Below are positions 28,450 through 36,439 of a DNA stretch of 37,078 nucleotides, in pieces. The first letter of the stretch is position 1, and every line of letters begins with the position of its first letter. Under the pieces are notes generated by a model. The model was not told where the DNA came from. It was given only the letters and a program-made list of their open reading frames with translations, and did no database searches. Made by a program: the position numbers and the translations under genes. Origin of the DNA: Rhizobium sp. Q54. Its GTDB lineage: Bacteria; Pseudomonadota; Alphaproteobacteria; SMXQ01. The stretch is taken from assembly GCA_945861615.1 (NCBI GenBank), contig CAMAVH010000013.1, positions 1 to 37,078 on the forward strand. Direction: 5' to 3'.

Positions 28450-28929
28450 TTATAAGCCGAGCGCCGTCAGGCCTGCGTGGTCGTCAGGTCGCCGGCCGAG
28501 CGGCCAGTGAAACTTGCGGTCTGCGGCGGCAATCGGCAAATCGTTGATGCTGGCGATGCGCTGACGCATACGGCCCGTCTGGTCGAACTCCCAGTTCTCG
28601 TTGCCGTAGCTGCGATGCCATTGCCCGTTGGCGTCGTGCCATTCATAGGCGAAACGCACGGCGATGCGGTTTTGATGAAAGGCCCAGACCTCCTTGACGA
28701 GACGGTACTCCCGTTCGCGTTCCCACTTCGTCTTTAGGAACGTGCGAATGGCATCATGTCCGACGATAAATTCAGCGCGGTTGCGCCATGCCGAGTCGGC
28801 CGTGTAGGCCAATACCACGCGGTCCGGATCGCGGCTGTTCCACGCGTCTTCCGCCATGCGCGCCTTTTCGGCTGCCGTCTCGAATGTAAAGGGAGGCAGG
28901 GGCGGCTTGTCGGTTGTCGCTACATTCAT
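28450..28929 (-). CDS. DUF1348/NTF2-like (SnoaL-type) protein
   Basis: The 159-residue protein has the NTF2-like fold of the DUF1348 family: '[40 protein letters not shown]', '[27 protein letters not shown]' and 'ASINDLPI'. The pocket residues (Trp, Asp, His, Asn) are kept, but the family has no agreed reaction. ATG 28929 is preferred to a TTG at 28995. It is the last gene of the cyanate unit, 62 bp after cynS, which suggests an accessory role there. Confidence 0.85.
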
Positions 28930-28991: not shown

Positions 28992-29441
28992 TCAATAGCG
29001 CCGATAGGGCAGGAACTTGCCGCTCATCACCAGCTTGACGCGATCGCCCTTCGGGTCGGGCAGACGTTCCATCGTCATATCGAAGTCGATGGCGCTCATA
29101 ATGCCGTCACCGAACTCTTCCTGGATCAACTCTTTGAACGTCGTGCCATAGACCTGCACCAACTCGTAGAAACGATAGATAAGCGGGTCGGTCGGCGGGC
29201 CCGGCGGCAGCGAGCCGCGATAAGGGATTTCCTGCAGGATTTGAATTGCCTCTGCGCCGAGACCGAGCAACTTGCCGGCCTTCTTAGCCTGCTCCTCGGT
29301 GAGCACCATTTGGCCCAGCAACGCGCATGTGATAACGATCGGCGAAGTTTTCGGATCGACCTTCTTGGCGATCGTGTTCCAGCCCAGTTTCTTCGCCCGC
29401 TTCGCGGACAGCACCGCCTCGGTCACATCGGCACGTTTCAT
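28992..29441 (-). CDS. cynS: cyanate hydratase (cyanase)
   Basis: The 149-residue protein converts cyanate plus bicarbonate to carbamate and CO2, and thence ammonia. The catalytic residues Arg90 and Glu93 ('[12 protein letters not shown]') and Ser116 ('IMSAIDFDM') align with E. coli Arg96, Glu99 and Ser122 at a constant offset of six. The N-terminal helical domain ('[11 protein letters not shown]', '[16 protein letters not shown]') is complete. ATG 29441 is chosen because GGAG lies 9 nt upstream; an ATG five codons earlier lacks such a site. It lies 28 bp after the ATPase gene of the ABC importer, so uptake and breakdown of cyanate are in one operon. Confidence 0.96.
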
Positions 29442-29469: not shown

Positions 29470-30366
29470 TCATTTGCCGGGATTGCGCCCGTTCGCCGCG
29501 AGGGGCACCACGCCGGCCTCGCGCGCGCCGGGATGCACGAAAGGACGATGGCGTGCGTCGAACGGCCGGGCGGCGATCTCGTCATTGAAGACGCGCGATC
29601 GGTTGACCAGAAATTCGATGAGATGGTTGCGCATCGGGTAATAGGCCGGATGCCGGTGAACATCGCTGCGCGAGCGATCCATCGGCAAGGTATTGACGAC
29701 GATCTCGGCGAGCTTGGCCTCGGGCCCGTTCGTCATCAGCAGCACCTTATCGGCGAGCAAGATTGCCTCGTCGACGTCGTGGGTGATCATAAAGACGGTT
29801 TGGCGCGTCTCGCGGCAGATGCGCAGCACTTCATCCTGCAGAACGCCGCGGGTCAGCGCGTCGAGCGCGCTGAACGGCTCGTCCATCAGGAGAATCTTCG
29901 GCTCAATCGCGAGCGCGCGGGCGATGCCGACGCGCTGCTTCATCCCCCCCGACAAAGCCGCCGGCCGCTTGCCCTCGGCGCCGGTAAGATTAACCAAATC
30001 GATATATTTTTGGCAATGCGCGCGGACTTTCGCCTTGTCCCATTTCGGCCAGCGCGAGCGCACCGCGAAGGCGAGATTGCCCATCACCGTCATCCAAGGC
30101 AGCAGGGCGTGGCCCTGGAAGATGACGGCGCGATCCAGACTCGGCCCGACGATCTGCGTTCCGGCGACGATGACTTCGCCGCCGCTTTGCTGCTCCAGGC
30201 CGGCGAGCACGTTGAGGATCGTCGTTTTGCCGCAGCCCGAATGGCCGATCAGGCAGACGAATTCGCCGGGCTCGACGTTGAACCACAGATCCCCGAAGAC
30301 CGTGGTCGGCCCATAGCTCTTGGCCAAGCCTTGAACCTGGATCATCGGCGGAGACGTCGCTTTCAT
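29470..30366 (-). CDS. ABC importer ATPase, nitrate/cyanate type (NrtD/CynD-like)
   Basis: The 298-residue ATPase has Walker A 'GHSGCGKT' (41-48), signature 'LSGGMKQR' (138-145), Walker B 'ILLMDEP' (158-164) and the switch His in 'MITHDVDEA'. The NrtD/SsuB/TauB group is indicated by 'GQ/GHALLPWMTVMGNL' and the C-terminal 'HPAYYPMRNHLIEFLV' extension. The start is 4 bp past the permease stop. It powers uptake of cyanate, inferred from cynS immediately downstream; nitrate or a related anion is possible. Confidence 0.93.
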   Translation of the reverse strand: MKATSPPMIQVQGLAKSYGPTTVFGDLWFNVEPGEFVCLIGHSGCGKTTILNVLAGLEQQSGGEVIVAGTQIVGPSLDRAVIFQGHALLPWMTVMGNLAFAVRSRWPKWDKAKVRAHCQKYIDLVNLTGAEGKRPAALSGGMKQRVGIARALAIEPKILLMDEPFSALDALTRGVLQDEVLRICRETRQTVFMITHDVDEAILLADKVLLMTNGPEAKLAEIVVNTLPMDRSRSDVHRHPAYYPMRNHLIEFLVNRSRVFNDEIAARPFDARHRPFVHPGAREAGVVPLAANGRNPGK

Positions 30367-30370
30367 CGTC

Positions 30371-31198
30371 TCACTCCGGATAGGTAACGAGCCGCGCGAG
30401 CCGCGCGAGCAGTTGATCGAATATCAGACCGATCAAGCCGATGAACAGGATTGCCGTGATGATATTGGTGATCGAAAGGTTGTTCCACTCGTTCCACACG
30501 AAGTAACCGATGCCCGTGCCGCCGACGAGCATTTCGGCGGCGACGATCACCAGCCAGGCGATGCCGATAGAGATGCGCATGCCTGTCATGATTGTCGGCG
30601 CGGCGGCCGGCAGGATGACGAGAAATGCCTTGCGGATCGCATTGACCTCCAGCGTGCGCGCCACATTGAGCCATTCGCGACGCACCGCCATGACGCCGAA
30701 CGCGGTATTGATCAGCATCGGCCAGATCGAACAGACGAAGATGACGAAGATCGCCGAGGTGTCGCTGTCCTTGATCGTGTAGAGCGCGAGCGGCGAGATC
30801 GGCTTCAGAAGCTGGATGAATGGATCCAGCGCCTTATAGACCAACGGCGACATGCCGATGAGAAAGCCGAGCGGTATGGCGACGAGCGCTGCGAGGAGGT
30901 AGCCGACCAAGACGCGCAGGATAGAGAATCCGAGCTGGATGCCGATGCCCTTGTCGTTCGTTCCGTTGACGTAGAACGGGTCGAGAATATGCCGCCAAAT
31001 CGTCGTCGCGACGGCGAGCGGCGTCGGCATCGAGCTTTTTTGCCCCGTCGACGCCGCGGCGCCGAGAAGCTTGGCATATTCCGGGTCCATCGTTTCCGTG
31101 CCGGCGCTGGGCAGCGTCGCCAGCTGCCAGGCCAGCACGAAAACGGCGAACAACGCGACGGAGAGAATGGCGGCGCGCAAGGAGAGGCTTTTCTTCAT
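30371..31198 (-). CDS. ABC importer permease, NrtB/CynB-like
   Basis: The 275-residue protein has an N-terminal membrane helix, a periplasmic segment ('DPEYAKLLGAAASTGQKSSMP') and about five further helices. The EAA-like coupling loop is 'VRREWLNVARTLEVNAIRKAFLVILPAAAPTIMTG', and 'GGTGIGYFVWNEWNNLSITNI' is typical of NrtB/SsuC-class permeases. Its ATG overlaps the receptor stop by one base (TGATG), and the ATPase gene follows after 4 bp, so the three are translationally linked. Confidence 0.93.
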   Translation of the reverse strand: MKKSLSLRAAILSVALFAVFVLAWQLATLPSAGTETMDPEYAKLLGAAASTGQKSSMPTPLAVATTIWRHILDPFYVNGTNDKGIGIQLGFSILRVLVGYLLAALVAIPLGFLIGMSPLVYKALDPFIQLLKPISPLALYTIKDSDTSAIFVIFVCSIWPMLINTAFGVMAVRREWLNVARTLEVNAIRKAFLVILPAAAPTIMTGMRISIGIAWLVIVAAEMLVGGTGIGYFVWNEWNNLSITNIITAILFIGLIGLIFDQLLARLARLVTYPE

Positions 31199-32589
31199 CA
31201 GGTGCGGCGGATCGCGAAGCTGGCAATATATTCTTCGGGCTTCTTGGGATCGAACGCCTTGCCCATCACCGAGAACGTCTTGCTCGTCGCGGTCGGCGGA
31301 GTCAGGCCCGATTCTTTCATCAGCTTGGTCGCGTCCGTCGCGAGGAAGACCTCGCGCGCGACCTTGTCATAGTCGATATCGCCCTTGATCTGACCCCAGC
31401 GCTTCATCTGGGTCATGATCCAGATGGCGAAGCTCTCCCACGGGAACGGGTCGAAATCGATGCGCTTAGGATCTCGCTTTACGTTGCCCAAACCGTCGGC
31501 ATAGGTGCCGGTCAGCACCTGTTCGACCACCGTGACGGGCTGGTTCAGATAGTTGGCCGGCGCGATGGCTTCGGCGATTTGCTTGCGGTTCGCGTCCTTC
31601 GTCGCGAAAGCGGTCGCGTCGATGATCGCCTTGAGCAGCGCCTGGTACGTGTTCGGCATCTGCGTGACGAATTCCTTGCTCGCGGCGAAGGCGCAGCAGG
31701 GATGGCCGTCCCAAATCTGCTTCGACAGCGTGTGGATGAAGCCGACGCCGTCGTAGACAGCGCGCTGGTTCACCGGATCGGGCGCCAAGAATCCGTCGAT
31801 ATTGTCGGCGCGCAGGTTGGCCACCATTTCCGGCGGCGGCACCGAGCGGATCTGCACGTCCTTGTCCGGATCGATGCCGTTCTCGGCCAGGAAATAGCGC
31901 AGCAGATAGTTGTGCATCGAATAGTCGAACGGGACGGCGAACTTCATGCCCTTCCACGACTTCGGATCCATCTTGTCCTTGTGCTTCATCGCCAAGGTGA
32001 TGGCCTGACCGTTGATGTTTTCGACCGCCGGCATGGTGTAGGGAATCCGGCTTGAGCCGGCGCCCAGGGTGATGGCGATCGGCATCGGCGACAGCATGTG
32101 CGCCGCGTCATATTCCTTGTTCATCGTCTTGTCGCGCACGATGGCCCAACCGGCCGTTTTGACCACTTCGACGTCGAGACCGTGTTTCGTATAGAAGCCC
32201 ATAGGATGCGCCATGATGATCGGCGTGGCGCAAGTGATCGGAATGAAGCCGACCTTTAGGCTTTTTTTCTCGATCGCGCCCATGCCTTGCGCAAAGGCCT
32301 CGCGGGCAAAGCCGAGGGGCAAGGCTTCGGCCAGCGCGGCCATGGCGGTCGAAGCGCCGACGGTGCGCAAGAAGTTGCGGCGCGTGACGTCGTTCGGAAT
32401 AACCGCGCGCAGAATGGCGGATTCGACGACGCGGTTGTAACGCGCCTCTTCATCGCCTGCGACGGCGAGCGTCTCCTCGCGGCGCGCGGCCGCATCATGG
32501 GCGTTCTGGTCGGCATGAGCCCCGCAGGAACAACCGCCGCGATTGAGTTGGATGTCCGAGTCGAATGGATTGTCGAAGGAAGACGCCAT
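31198..32589 (-). CDS. NrtA/CynA-like substrate-binding protein with Tat signal
   Basis: The 463-residue protein has an N-terminal cytoplasmic extension of about 68 residues containing 'RGGCSCGAHADQNAHD' (Cys20 and Cys22). A twin-arginine signal 'TRRNFLRTVGAS' (69-80) and hydrophobic 'AMAALAEALPLGF' follow, then the binding domain: 'LKVGFIPITCATPIIMAHPMGFYTKHGLDVEVVK', 'GFLAPDPVNQRAVYDGVGFIH' and 'HPCCAFAASKEF'. This is the NrtA/CmpA/CynA class for nitrate, bicarbonate or cyanate. Export via Tat implies folding before transport. ATG 32589 has GGGGG upstream. A near-consensus sigma54 promoter lies about 52 bp before the start. It is the first gene of the cyanate operon. Confidence 0.93.
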   Translation of the reverse strand: MASSFDNPFDSDIQLNRGGCSCGAHADQNAHDAAARREETLAVAGDEEARYNRVVESAILRAVIPNDVTRRNFLRTVGASTAMAALAEALPLGFAREAFAQGMGAIEKKSLKVGFIPITCATPIIMAHPMGFYTKHGLDVEVVKTAGWAIVRDKTMNKEYDAAHMLSPMPIAITLGAGSSRIPYTMPAVENINGQAITLAMKHKDKMDPKSWKGMKFAVPFDYSMHNYLLRYFLAENGIDPDKDVQIRSVPPPEMVANLRADNIDGFLAPDPVNQRAVYDGVGFIHTLSKQIWDGHPCCAFAASKEFVTQMPNTYQALLKAIIDATAFATKDANRKQIAEAIAPANYLNQPVTVVEQVLTGTYADGLGNVKRDPKRIDFDPFPWESFAIWIMTQMKRWGQIKGDIDYDKVAREVFLATDATKLMKESGLTPPTATSKTFSVMGKAFDPKKPEEYIASFAIRRT

Positions 32590-32640
32590 AAGTGCCCCCG
32601 CAAATGAGCTGCGCCGCAGTGCGGCAGTACCTTCAGCCTT

Positions 32641-32655
32641 GCAACCCCCGTGCCG
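32641..32655 (-). promoter_or_regulatory. sigma54 (-24/-12) promoter of the cyanate operon
   Basis: The minus strand reads CGGCACGGGGGTTGC followed by A. This matches the consensus TGGCACG-N4-TTGC(A/T) except for the first base, with GG and GC at the required 10-nt spacing. Transcription would start near 32630, giving a leader of about 40 nt before the receptor ATG at 32589. Confidence 0.85.
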
Positions 32656-32739
32656 CATCTAAAAGTTGCATTTTTTATCAACAGAATAAGATAGTTAGGG
32701 AAATTTGGGTTCAGGCTGAGAATCACGAAAAATCGTGTT

Positions 32740-32777
32740 ATACGTATTCTCGTAATCTCAACTACGAGAATTCGTAT
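32740..32777. promoter_or_regulatory. palindrome, probable activator binding site
   Basis: Arms 32740-32754 (ATACGTATTCTCGTA) and 32763-32777 (TACGAGAATTCGTAT) are inverted copies with one mismatch in 15, around an 8-bp spacer. The centre is about 117 bp upstream of the -12 element of the cyanate promoter, a normal enhancer distance. Its right end stops one base before the activator's start codon, so occupation would also affect the activator's own expression. Confidence 0.75.
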
Positions 32778-32778
32778 T

Positions 32779-34692
32779 ATGGATGACTATCGATCCCTGC
32801 CCTCGCAGGATCAAGATTGGCTCTTTCGCCAGGTCTTCGTCGCCTGCACCGAGGCGATTTTGATCGTCGATCCACTTGTCGACCGGATCGTCGCGGCCAA
32901 TCCTGGGGCCTGCCGCCTGCTCGGTTACGACGAAGCCCGCCTCAAGGACGTACGCTTCAGCGCGCTGCATCCCGGCCAATTGCCGAGCCTGATCGTATTC
33001 AGCGAAAACGCATTGACCAAAGGCGAGGCCTGGACGCGGACGCTCTCGCCGCAACGGGCCGGCGGCGGTGAGTTGAAGGTCGAATATGCCGCCACCCTGA
33101 TGCGGCTCGGCGAGCGTGAGCTCTTGCTGTTCACGCTCAGCGATCTCGATACCCGCCAGCAGCGCGATCTCGATGCCAAAGCGCAGGATTATCTGCAGAG
33201 CGGCATCGCCCAGTGGCAGCGGGTCGAGCGCTTCTTTCAGGAGATCGAGCAGGAGAACCGACTGATTCTCAGCGCCGCCGGCGAAGGCATTTACGGCGTC
33301 AACGCCGAAGGCCGCACCACCTTCGTCAATCCGGCCGCGGAGCAGATTCTCGGCTGGCCTGCCGACGAACTGATCGGCCGCGACATCCACGGCATCGTCC
33401 ATCATAAGCGGGCCGACGGCAGCCATTATCCCGCCATCGAATGCCCGATTTATGCGGCCTTCCGCGACGGGGCGGTGCACAAGGTCGATGATGAAGTGTT
33501 CTGGCGCCGCAACGGCACTCCAGTCTGGGTCGAATATACCTCGACGCCGATCCGCGACCGCGGCGAAGTGGTCGGCGCGGTGATCGTGTTTCGCGACATC
33601 AGCGAACGGCGCGAGGCGCAGGACAAGCTGCGCGCCGCGCTTGCCGAAGTCGACAGCCTGCGTCAGCGTCTCGAGCTGGAGAACGCCTATCTGCAGGAAG
33701 AAATCCGCGGCGAATCGAACCACCATGAGATCATCGGCCGCAGCGCCGTCATCCAGGCGGTTTTGCGCCAGATTGAATTGGTCGCGCCGACCGATGCTAC
33801 GGTGCTGATCACCGGCGAATCGGGCACCGGCAAAGAACTGATCGCGCGCGCCATCCATGAAGCCAGCGGCCGGCGCGACCGCCCGCTCATCCGCGTCAAC
33901 TGCGCGGCCATTCCACGCGAGCTATTCGAAAGCGAGTTCTTCGGCCATGTCAAAGGCGCCTTCACCGGCGCTATCCGCGACCGTATCGGGCGCTTCGAAT
34001 TGGCCGACGGCGGCACCTTGTTCCTCGACGAGGTCGGCGAAATCCCCCTTGAATTGCAGGGCAAGCTGCTGCGCGTATTGCAGGAAGGGCATTTCGAACG
34101 CGTCGGCGAAGAGCGTACGCGACAGGTCAACGTACGCCTCATCGCCGCGACCAATCTCGAACTCAAACAAGAGGTGCGGCGCCGCCGGTTTCGCGAAGAT
34201 CTCTATTTTCGACTCAATGTTTTTCCGATCGAATCGGCGCCGTTGCGCGAACGGCTCGACGACGTGCCGCTACTCGCGATGCATTTCATCGGCACCATCG
34301 GTCGCCGGCTCAATCTACCGCATCTGCGATTGACTCAAGGCGACATCCAGGCGCTCGGCCGCTACGATTGGCCGGGCAACGTGCGCGAATTGGAGAATGT
34401 CATCGAGCGCGCCGCCATTCTCGCGCGTGACGGCCGCCTGCGCTTCGACTTGCCCGACGCGCGCCATCCGGCCCCCGCCAAGGCGCCCCCGAAGGCACAA
34501 TCGCAACAGGGAGGACTGCTGACAGAAGATGCGCGACGCGCGCGCGACCGCGCCAATATCCTGGCCGCCCTCGAAGCCTGCAGCGGCAAAGTCTTCGGCG
34601 CCGGCGGCGCCGCGGAATTGCTCGGCGTGAAGCCGACGACTCTGGCCTCGCGCATCAAGTCGCTCGGGCTGAAAGGCGTGCGGACCCCCTGA
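32779..34692 (+). CDS. PAS-PAS sigma54-dependent transcriptional activator
   Basis: The 637-residue protein has PAS domain 1 (about 15-125), PAS domain 2 (about 160-275), a short coiled coil (280-310) and an AAA+ domain. The AAA+ domain has Walker A 'GESGTGKE' (346-353), intact GAFTGA (393-398), Walker B 'GTLFLDEV' (412-419) and '[17 protein letters not shown]'. A Fis-type helix-turn-helix closes the C-terminus ('[22 protein letters not shown]'). No membrane helix is seen, so PAS sensing is cytoplasmic. ATG 32779 is kept because PAS 1 begins shortly after it. It diverges from the cyanate operon, whose promoter is sigma54-type, so it is the expected activator. Confidence 0.93.
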
Positions 34693-34921
34693 TAAAGCTC
34701 GGCCCGCGACGAGGTCGATTTCGAATTGCACACCCATGGCGCAAATCCACCCCTCACCGATTTCTCTGTTAATTCAACTACCTATAGATCCTCCAGCCCG
34801 GAAAATTGTGAAATTTTCGACGCGCTTTTGATAGCGATTGCGCGATACTCCCTCTCCAATAGGGAGCAACGACGACCCACGCGCGAAGCCTGGGCGCAAT
34901 AGAACGAGCGGGCGGCAACGG

Positions 34922-36439
34922 ATGCACGACGATCCCCAGGAACACGGCCATTTCGGCATCAATGACGAAGCGATTTTCGGCCCGGTCGCCGAAGACGGCT
35001 TCCCGAGCAATCCGGACTGGCTGCGCCTGACCAGCGTCGGCATCGACATCGGCTCGTCCACCTCCCATCTCATGTTTTCCCGCCTGATCCTGCGCCGGCG
35101 CAGCCAAGAGATGTCGAGCGAGTTCGAGGTCGTCTATCGCGAGGTGCTGTACCGCTCGCCGATTTTGCTGACGCCCTATGCCAGCCAAGACTCCATCAAC
35201 ATGGAGGCCCTCGCCGCCTTCATGCGCCGCAGCTACGAGGCGGCCGGCATCGCCATCGACGACGTCGACACCGGCGCCGTGATCTGCACCGGCGAGGCCG
35301 TCCGCAAACAAAACTCCGAAGCTATCATCCGGATGCTGGCTGCGGCGGGCGGAAAATTCGTCTGCGCCACGGCAGGCCCCAACCTGGAGGCCGTGCTCGG
35401 CGCCCATGGCTCCGGCGCTGTGGCCAGATCGCGCGAAAATGGCGTTTGCCTGCATGTCGACATCGGCGGCGGCACCGCCAAGCTGGCGGTGATCAAGGCC
35501 GGCGTCATCGTCGAGACCGCGTCGGTTAACGTCGGGGCGCGATTGCTGGCGTGGGACAACGACAACCGGATCGTCCGCATGGAAGCTGCCGGCCAAACGA
35601 TCGCGCGCGCCAGCGGCCATCCCCTCGCTCTCGGCGACCAGATCAACGAGGCGGAGAAGCAGGCCCTGGCCGAACGCTTGGCGGACGTTCTCTGCGAGGT
35701 CATGCAGCGCCAGCACCTATCGCCCCTCGCCGCCGGCCTGATCGTGTCGGGACCGCTCAAATATAGCGGGCAGATCGACGAGATCAGTTTTTCCGGCGGC
35801 GTCAGCGAATATATCTACGGCCTCTACGGCCGCGAGCATGGCGATCTCGGGCCTCTGCTCGGCACCGCCATCCGCCAACGCGTACCGGCGCTCGGCCTAT
35901 CACTGGCGGGCAGCCTCGAACGCATCCGCGCCACCGTCATCGGCGCCTCGCAATATACCGTGCAGCTCTCGAGCAGCACCGTCTTCATCTCGCGCGCCGG
36001 CCTGCTGCCACAGGCCGATCTGCAGGTCGTGCCGGCACATCTGCCGGCTGATCCGACGCTGCTGAGCGCGGCCACGGTCAAGGAGGCGATCCTGCAGGGC
36101 TTCGAGCGCCTCGACATCGCACCCGACAGCCTGCAGCGGCCTGTCGCGCTGGCGCTGCTCGGCCCGGTGATCCCCAACCGCGCCTCGATTAAGGCGCTAT
36201 GCAGCGGCATCCGCCAGACGCTTGGGCCGGTCACCGACTTTCCCTGGATCGTCATCCTCACGGCGGATGTCGCCGGCCTCGTCGGCTCCATCCTCAAGGA
36301 GGAGGAAAAGGTGGCGCAGGACATCATCGTCCTCGACGGCATCAAGGTCGGCGAGTTCGATTTCATCGACCTCGGCCAGCCGATCAAAGCGGTCGATGCG
36401 ATTCCGGCGGTCGTCAAATCCCTGGTGTTTGAAGGCTAA
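34922..36439 (+). CDS. eutA: EutA-like ethanolamine ammonia-lyase reactivase family protein
   Basis: The 505-residue protein has the actin/Hsp70-type ATPase fold of EutA, which exchanges inactivated adenosylcobalamin in ethanolamine ammonia-lyase. It has phosphate-1 loop 'SVGIDIGSSTSHLMFS' (38-53), phosphate-2 loop 'LHVDIGGGTAKLAVI' (177-191), 'FSGGVSEYIYG' and 'GPVIPNRASIKALCSGIRQTL'. ATG 34922 is preferred; an in-frame TTG at 34838 adds a basic, unconserved-looking tail. No eutB/eutC genes lie in the window, so its partner is either elsewhere or different. It converges with a cupin gene, 18 bp away. Confidence 0.88.
   Translation: MHDDPQEHGHFGINDEAIFGPVAEDGFPSNPDWLRLTSVGIDIGSSTSHLMFSRLILRRRSQEMSSEFEVVYREVLYRSPILLTPYASQDSINMEALAAFMRRSYEAAGIAIDDVDTGAVICTGEAVRKQNSEAIIRMLAAAGGKFVCATAGPNLEAVLGAHGSGAVARSRENGVCLHVDIGGGTAKLAVIKAGVIVETASVNVGARLLAWDNDNRIVRMEAAGQTIARASGHPLALGDQINEAEKQALAERLADVLCEVMQRQHLSPLAAGLIVSGPLKYSGQIDEISFSGGVSEYIYGLYGREHGDLGPLLGTAIRQRVPALGLSLAGSLERIRATVIGASQYTVQLSSSTVFISRAGLLPQADLQVVPAHLPADPTLLSAATVKEAILQGFERLDIAPDSLQRPVALALLGPVIPNRASIKALCSGIRQTLGPVTDFPWIVILTADVAGLVGSILKEEEKVAQDIIVLDGIKVGEFDFIDLGQPIKAVDAIPAVVKSLVFEG

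Follow-up and report, generated by a model that had tools for sequence, protein, structure and literature searches.

A predicted sigma54 control region with three helically phased CynF boxes upstream of a cyanate operon in Rhizobium sp. Q54

INTRODUCTION

How are cyanate uptake and breakdown controlled in Rhizobium sp. Q54? The 37,078-bp stretch of DNA analyzed here (the window; contig CAMAVH010000013.1) carries a cyanate operon that faces a divergently transcribed regulatory gene. The cyanase operon of Escherichia coli, cynTSX, also has a divergent regulator, CynR; that system uses a LysR-type protein and a sigma70 promoter and has no ABC transporter. For the locus studied here, an initial examination of the DNA without database searches (the sequence-only reading) had proposed control by sigma54.

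Pseudomonas pseudoalcaligenes (oleovorans) CECT5344 carries a cynFABDS cluster with the sigma54-dependent activator CynF, and its cynA gene is preceded by a putative sigma54 promoter (PMC6627978). A CynF mutant of this species had no cyanase activity under any nitrogen source, and the operon was induced by cyanate, repressed by ammonium, and partially expressed without cyanate under nitrogen starvation (PMC6627978). We conclude that the region in Rhizobium sp. Q54 very probably controls a cyanate operon of the CynF type, in which CynF on three dyads activates the sigma54 promoter of cynABDS-DUF1348.

RESULTS AND DISCUSSION

Gene content of the locus

The divergent gene, cynF (32,779 to 34,692, plus strand), encodes a 637-aa sigma54 activator with a PAS-PAS-AAA+(GAFTGA)-Fis HTH arrangement (Pfam/NCBIfam matches: PAS, PAS, Sigma54_activat, AAA lid, and a weak Fis-type HTH_8), as the sequence-only reading had stated in describing a GAFTGA-bearing PAS activator. 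The GAFTGA motif, Walker A (GESGTGKE), and Walker B were kept in 98 CynF orthologues, and the protein was 60% identical to the orthologues of Pseudomonas chengduensis and P. sediminis (L090 and L091). No divergent LysR-type regulator was found at the locus by Pfam/NCBIfam.

The genes on the minus strand are cynA (31,198 to 32,589; substrate-binding protein, NMT1_2/NrtA-like), cynB (30,371 to 31,198; ABC permease, NtrB-like), cynD (29,470 to 30,366; ABC ATPase, NtrCD-like), cynS (28,992 to 29,441; above the NCBIfam cutoff for cyanase), and a DUF1348 (SnoaL-like) gene (28,450 to 28,929), which is likely the last gene of the operon. The cynABD transporter and cynS thus lie in one operon, and the same gene order was seen in most orthologous loci. 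The mechanically called cynA open reading frame starts at 32,658, upstream of the promoter described below; we preferred the ATG at 32,589 (after GGGGGCACTT), which fits both the promoter and the aligned orthologue starts. CECT5344 and the host share a divergent Fis-type sigma54 activator CynF, the cynABDS order, a putative sigma54 promoter before cynA, and cyanase, whereas the host operon ends with the extra DUF1348 gene and the host belongs to a class holding Bradyrhizobium-like relatives.

A conserved -24/-12 element faces cynA

The near-perfect -24/-12 element reported to face the operon was confirmed as CGGCACGGGGGTTGCA (minus strand, 32,655 to 32,640), which has one mismatch to TGGCACG-N4-TTGCW and ten bases from GG to GC. 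Its weighted-consensus score (24.0) was the highest on either strand of the window (runner-up, 22.0), and it places the predicted start of cynA transcription at ~32,629. By pattern count alone, the 37 kb contained four matches at ≤2 mismatches against 6.8 expected by chance, which is not significant. Given that a lone match with one or two mismatches carries so little weight in a sequence of this length, the deciding evidence is conservation among orthologues. A score of ≥20 toward cynA was obtained in 96% of 96 orthologous regions (opposite strand, 20%; shuffles, 5%). The GG of the -24 element was kept in 95 of 95 regions, and the G and C of the -12 element were kept in 94 and 92 of 95, respectively.

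The sigma54 gene, rpoN, is encoded in the genome. Furthermore, cynS is among the genes whose expression was reduced under RpoN-deficient conditions in Bradyrhizobium sp. DOA9 (PMC13207237). A consensus search for a sigma70-type promoter of cynF found none. In two gammaproteobacterial metagenome-assembled genomes (L056 and L094), the cynF-cynA region was very long, with >750 bp before the aligned portion of cynA, and the promoter lay far from the aligned cynA start.

Three 14-bp dyads upstream of the promoter

A palindrome with 15-bp arms and one mismatch had been noted about 117 bp upstream of the promoter. It is present at 32,740 to 32,777 (ATACGTATTCTCGTA-N8-TACGAGAATTCGTAT), with ~117 bp from its center to the -12 base. 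When a set of 96 cynF-cyn intergenic regions of alpha- and gammaproteobacterial origin was scanned for inverted repeats, the recurrent unit was a 14-bp dyad, YACGA-N4-TCGTR. The palindrome, which had been read as a single site, comprises two of three such dyads in the host; the third had been overlooked. The right arm corresponds to predicted CynF box 1 (TACGAGAATTCGTA; 32,763 to 32,776), with the cynF start codon 2 bp beyond its end, and the left arm corresponds to predicted box 2 (TACGTATTCTCGTA; 32,741 to 32,754; one mismatch). Predicted box 3 (CACGAAAAATCGTG; 32,724 to 32,737) is promoter proximal and a perfect dyad. No strand is assigned to the boxes. Counted from the promoter outward, the predicted box centers lie at about -101, -118, and -140 relative to the predicted transcription start.

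Boxes with ≤1 mismatch occurred 219 times in the 96 regions, whereas dinucleotide shuffles gave 2.9 on average and no more than 8 (a ~75-fold difference from the mean); exact boxes occurred 104 times, compared with 0.18. At least one box with ≤1 mismatch was present in 87 of 96 regions. The full triplet was found in 86 of 95 regions with nearly fixed geometry: the first center spacing was 21 to 22 bp in 81 triplets and 23 bp in 5, and the second was 17 bp in 83 and 18 bp in 3. In approximately 9 of 95 orthologous regions (e.g., L013, L104, L058, L070, L076, L088, L080, and L094), the boxes were weak or absent by consensus, suggesting that the array has diverged or been reduced in some lineages.

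The long, near-perfect arms in the host genome could also be taken as a single 38-bp operator of an unrelated repressor or of a LysR-type protein resembling CynR, as in the E. coli cyn operon. We consider this exceedingly unlikely. The divergent neighbor is a sigma54 activator and not a LysR-type protein, the box pair follows CynF across genomes (see below), and the orthologues show no long palindrome and instead keep three separate 14-bp dyads at spacings of 21/22 and 17 bp; on the latter ground we rejected the long palindrome as the unit. Many of the loci come from Bradyrhizobium and its kin, so that conservation might also stem from common descent after a recent spread of the region and not from function. 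The probability of this is likewise very small, given that 59 dissimilar alpha- and gammaproteobacterial regions (CynF identity down to 54 to 57%) keep the boxes and their spacing while the flanking bases differ.

The sequence of the box is itself compatible with recognition by CynF. The closest models to the AAA+ and HTH parts of CynF are FhlA and NorR; the best NCBIfam similarity was to FhlA (385 bits, below the cutoff). The FhlA site CATTTCGTACGAAATG contains the half-site TTTCGTA/TACGAAA (PMC4987338), which is common to the CynF boxes. Because the half-site is that of FhlA and the AAA+/HTH part is closest to FhlA and NorR, the box fits CynF, although the FhlA half-sites are in the reverse arrangement and closer together and the sensor domain of FhlA is different.

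Box 3 and the promoter are helically phased

Among 95 regions, the distance from the center of box 3 to the start of the -24 element was 52 to 54, 62 to 67, 73 to 78, or 88 bp, with nothing between these classes, which are thus separated by about one helical turn. In the 59 dissimilar regions, the vector length at the best period (R = 0.83) exceeded every value from 5,000 jittered nulls (≤0.43). On the CynF protein tree, the turn class changed at least nine times; every change was by about one turn, and none was out of phase or at a half-turn. This amounts to a natural series of enhancer-promoter distances shifted repeatedly by approximately whole turns.

A weak IHF-like match, TATCAACAGAATA (32,676 to 32,688, plus strand; one mismatch), lies between box 3 and the promoter, and this exact site is not conserved. 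One-mismatch IHF sites were found 26 times in the 96 regions against 12.6 expected; the exact IHF consensus was present in only 1 of 96, and no IHF site was conserved in the enhancer-promoter interval. We therefore rejected IHF-assisted looping; so short a loop seems to depend on the phasing itself. The series of distances makes a clean comparative case for sigma54 activation being constrained by the face of the helix, and it apparently does so with no IHF site being conserved.

The phasing bears on a further alternative, in which the boxes serve chiefly for autorepression of cynF or for another regulator, and a different sigma54 activator (e.g., NtrC) drives the -24/-12 element upon nitrogen starvation. 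The position of box 1 against the cynF start codon is in line with this, as are the ammonium repression of the P. pseudoalcaligenes operon and its partial expression without cyanate in nitrogen starvation (PMC6627978). However, the CynF mutant lacked cyanase on every nitrogen source (PMC6627978), the phasing of box 3 with the -24 element ties the boxes to the promoter, and full NtrC-type sites were not enriched (7 of 96 regions; 5.7 in shuffles). We regard this alternative as improbable. Control by NtrC was rejected because the full TGCAC-N5-GGTGCA pattern was at background in the 96 regions; an excess of one-mismatch GCAC-N5-GTGC matches is probably an artifact of matching the -24/-12 element itself. 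NifA-type TGT-N10-ACA sites were below background in the same regions and were also rejected.

The box pair follows CynF across genomes

The sequence-only reading had called sigma54/PAS control of cyanase unusual, and this part did not hold. Among 385 genomes of the host's class, a CynF orthologue (E < 1e-160) was found in 18 and cyanase in 43; 18 of the 43 cyanase genomes carried CynF, and all 18 CynF genomes had cynS. Together with the published Pseudomonas case (PMC6627978), these counts correct the view that cyanase is only rarely under sigma54 control.

The box 2-box 3 pair (≤2 mismatches) was present in 18 of the 385 genomes, i.e., in 13 of 18 genomes with CynF and 5 of 367 without it (Fisher P = 1.3e-16). 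This P value is optimistic because the box consensus was partly drawn from genomes in the test, which leaves the near-absence of the pair elsewhere unaffected; since the orthologous regions are phylogenetically related, nominal P values also overstate independence. Each of the 13 genomes with CynF and the pair had it in one place, adjoining cynF. The number of CynF-negative genomes with a two-mismatch pair was similar to that for a reversed-pattern control, and all pairs with ≤1 mismatch were in CynF genomes. In the 2.98-Mb host genome, the exact box occurred in this region only (reversed control pattern, 15 occurrences). This distribution makes CynF look like a single-target regulator.

The searches found no CynF in the single same-genus genome or in any of the same-family genomes that they covered (G001 to G010, compared with the host, G000). 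Given this patchy distribution, the cluster may have been horizontally acquired or repeatedly lost. In six loci from Methylobacterium/Methylorubrum and Skermanella (L049, L055, L058, L061, L066, and L068), the gene directly faced by CynF and a sigma54-like element is cynS, with no detectable cynABD. At least one recognizable box remains in each of the five Methylobacterium-group loci; the Skermanella locus (L058) has none by consensus.

Sensor domain and proposed mechanism

The two PAS domains of CynF differ in their conservation. Across 98 orthologues, 1 of 113 columns of PAS1 was conserved at ≥97%, compared with 45 of 131 columns of PAS2 (33,241 to 33,633). The PAS2 residues H204, H208, H209, and C222 were conserved in ≥97% of the orthologues, and H208, H209, and C222 were not kept in a PAS paralogue from the same genome (L006). 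The near-invariance of H204, H208-H209, and C222 while PAS1 drifts freely suggests that PAS2 is the sensor, and these four residues could possibly form a metal site. A further step, by which CynF would sense cyanate directly, with cyanate binding a metal or heme site of these residues and freeing a scaffold-held AAA+ ring much as NO acts on the iron of NorR, is in our judgment rather unlikely. The closest solved structures gave weak matches to mixed PAS proteins only (the uncharacterized PA0861, DosP, and histidine-kinase PAS chains) and were not diagnostic of a ligand. The proposal that the locus ties cyanate use to nitrogen or redox state stands for nitrogen, which fits the published ammonium repression (PMC6627978); the redox part had no basis beyond the word "PAS."

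Sequence and comparison establish the elements, their conservation, spacing, and phasing, the co-occurrence with CynF, and the presence of rpoN, and these findings support a regulator dedicated to cyanate. In the mechanism that we propose, three CynF dimers would bind the three tandem YACGA-N4-TCGTR dyads; three dyads would hold three dimers and therefore one hexamer, so that the bound array may act as a scaffold for active CynF. The PAS region would be relieved by cyanate or a cyanate-derived signal, and the AAA+ ring would reach sigma54-RNA polymerase at the -24/-12 element via a short, helically phased loop and open the polymerase for transcription of cynABDS-DUF1348. Box 1 directly adjoins the cynF start codon, and for this reason CynF bound there probably also restricts expression of its own gene.

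The hexamer step has a precedent in E. coli NorR-norVW, for which three enhancer sites are essential and serve as a scaffold for the hexamer (PMC2941729). NorR and CynF are both single-component sigma54 activators with a divergent target operon and three enhancer sites (predicted for CynF). They differ in that NorR senses NO through a GAF/iron domain and uses GT-N7-AC sites, whereas two PAS domains and YACGA-N4-TCGTR boxes are characteristic of CynF. By analogy with P. pseudoalcaligenes, for which they have been demonstrated, the need for CynF, induction by cyanate, and repression by ammonium may be expected in the host.

The activator, its mutant, and the putative sigma54 promoter are already published; the box code, triplet geometry, and phasing appear to be newly defined here, in that the main text of PMC6627978 (i.e., outside its Figure S1) does not contain enhancer boxes, their spacing, or their phasing, which falls short of proving priority. 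The result is a testable binding code, three fixed copies of the dyad, for the cyanate regulator of many proteobacteria, by which cyanate-responsive promoters would be recognizable from sequence alone.

Other genes near the operon

An EutA-like gene (ethanolamine ammonia-lyase reactivating factor; 34,838 to 36,439) lies just downstream of cynF; it was found in none of 70 long orthologous cyn loci. The DUF1348 gene was linked to cyn genes in 11 of these 70 loci, making it a recurrent, unexplained partner of cyanase, and in some loci (L033 and L035) it lies between cynA and cynB.
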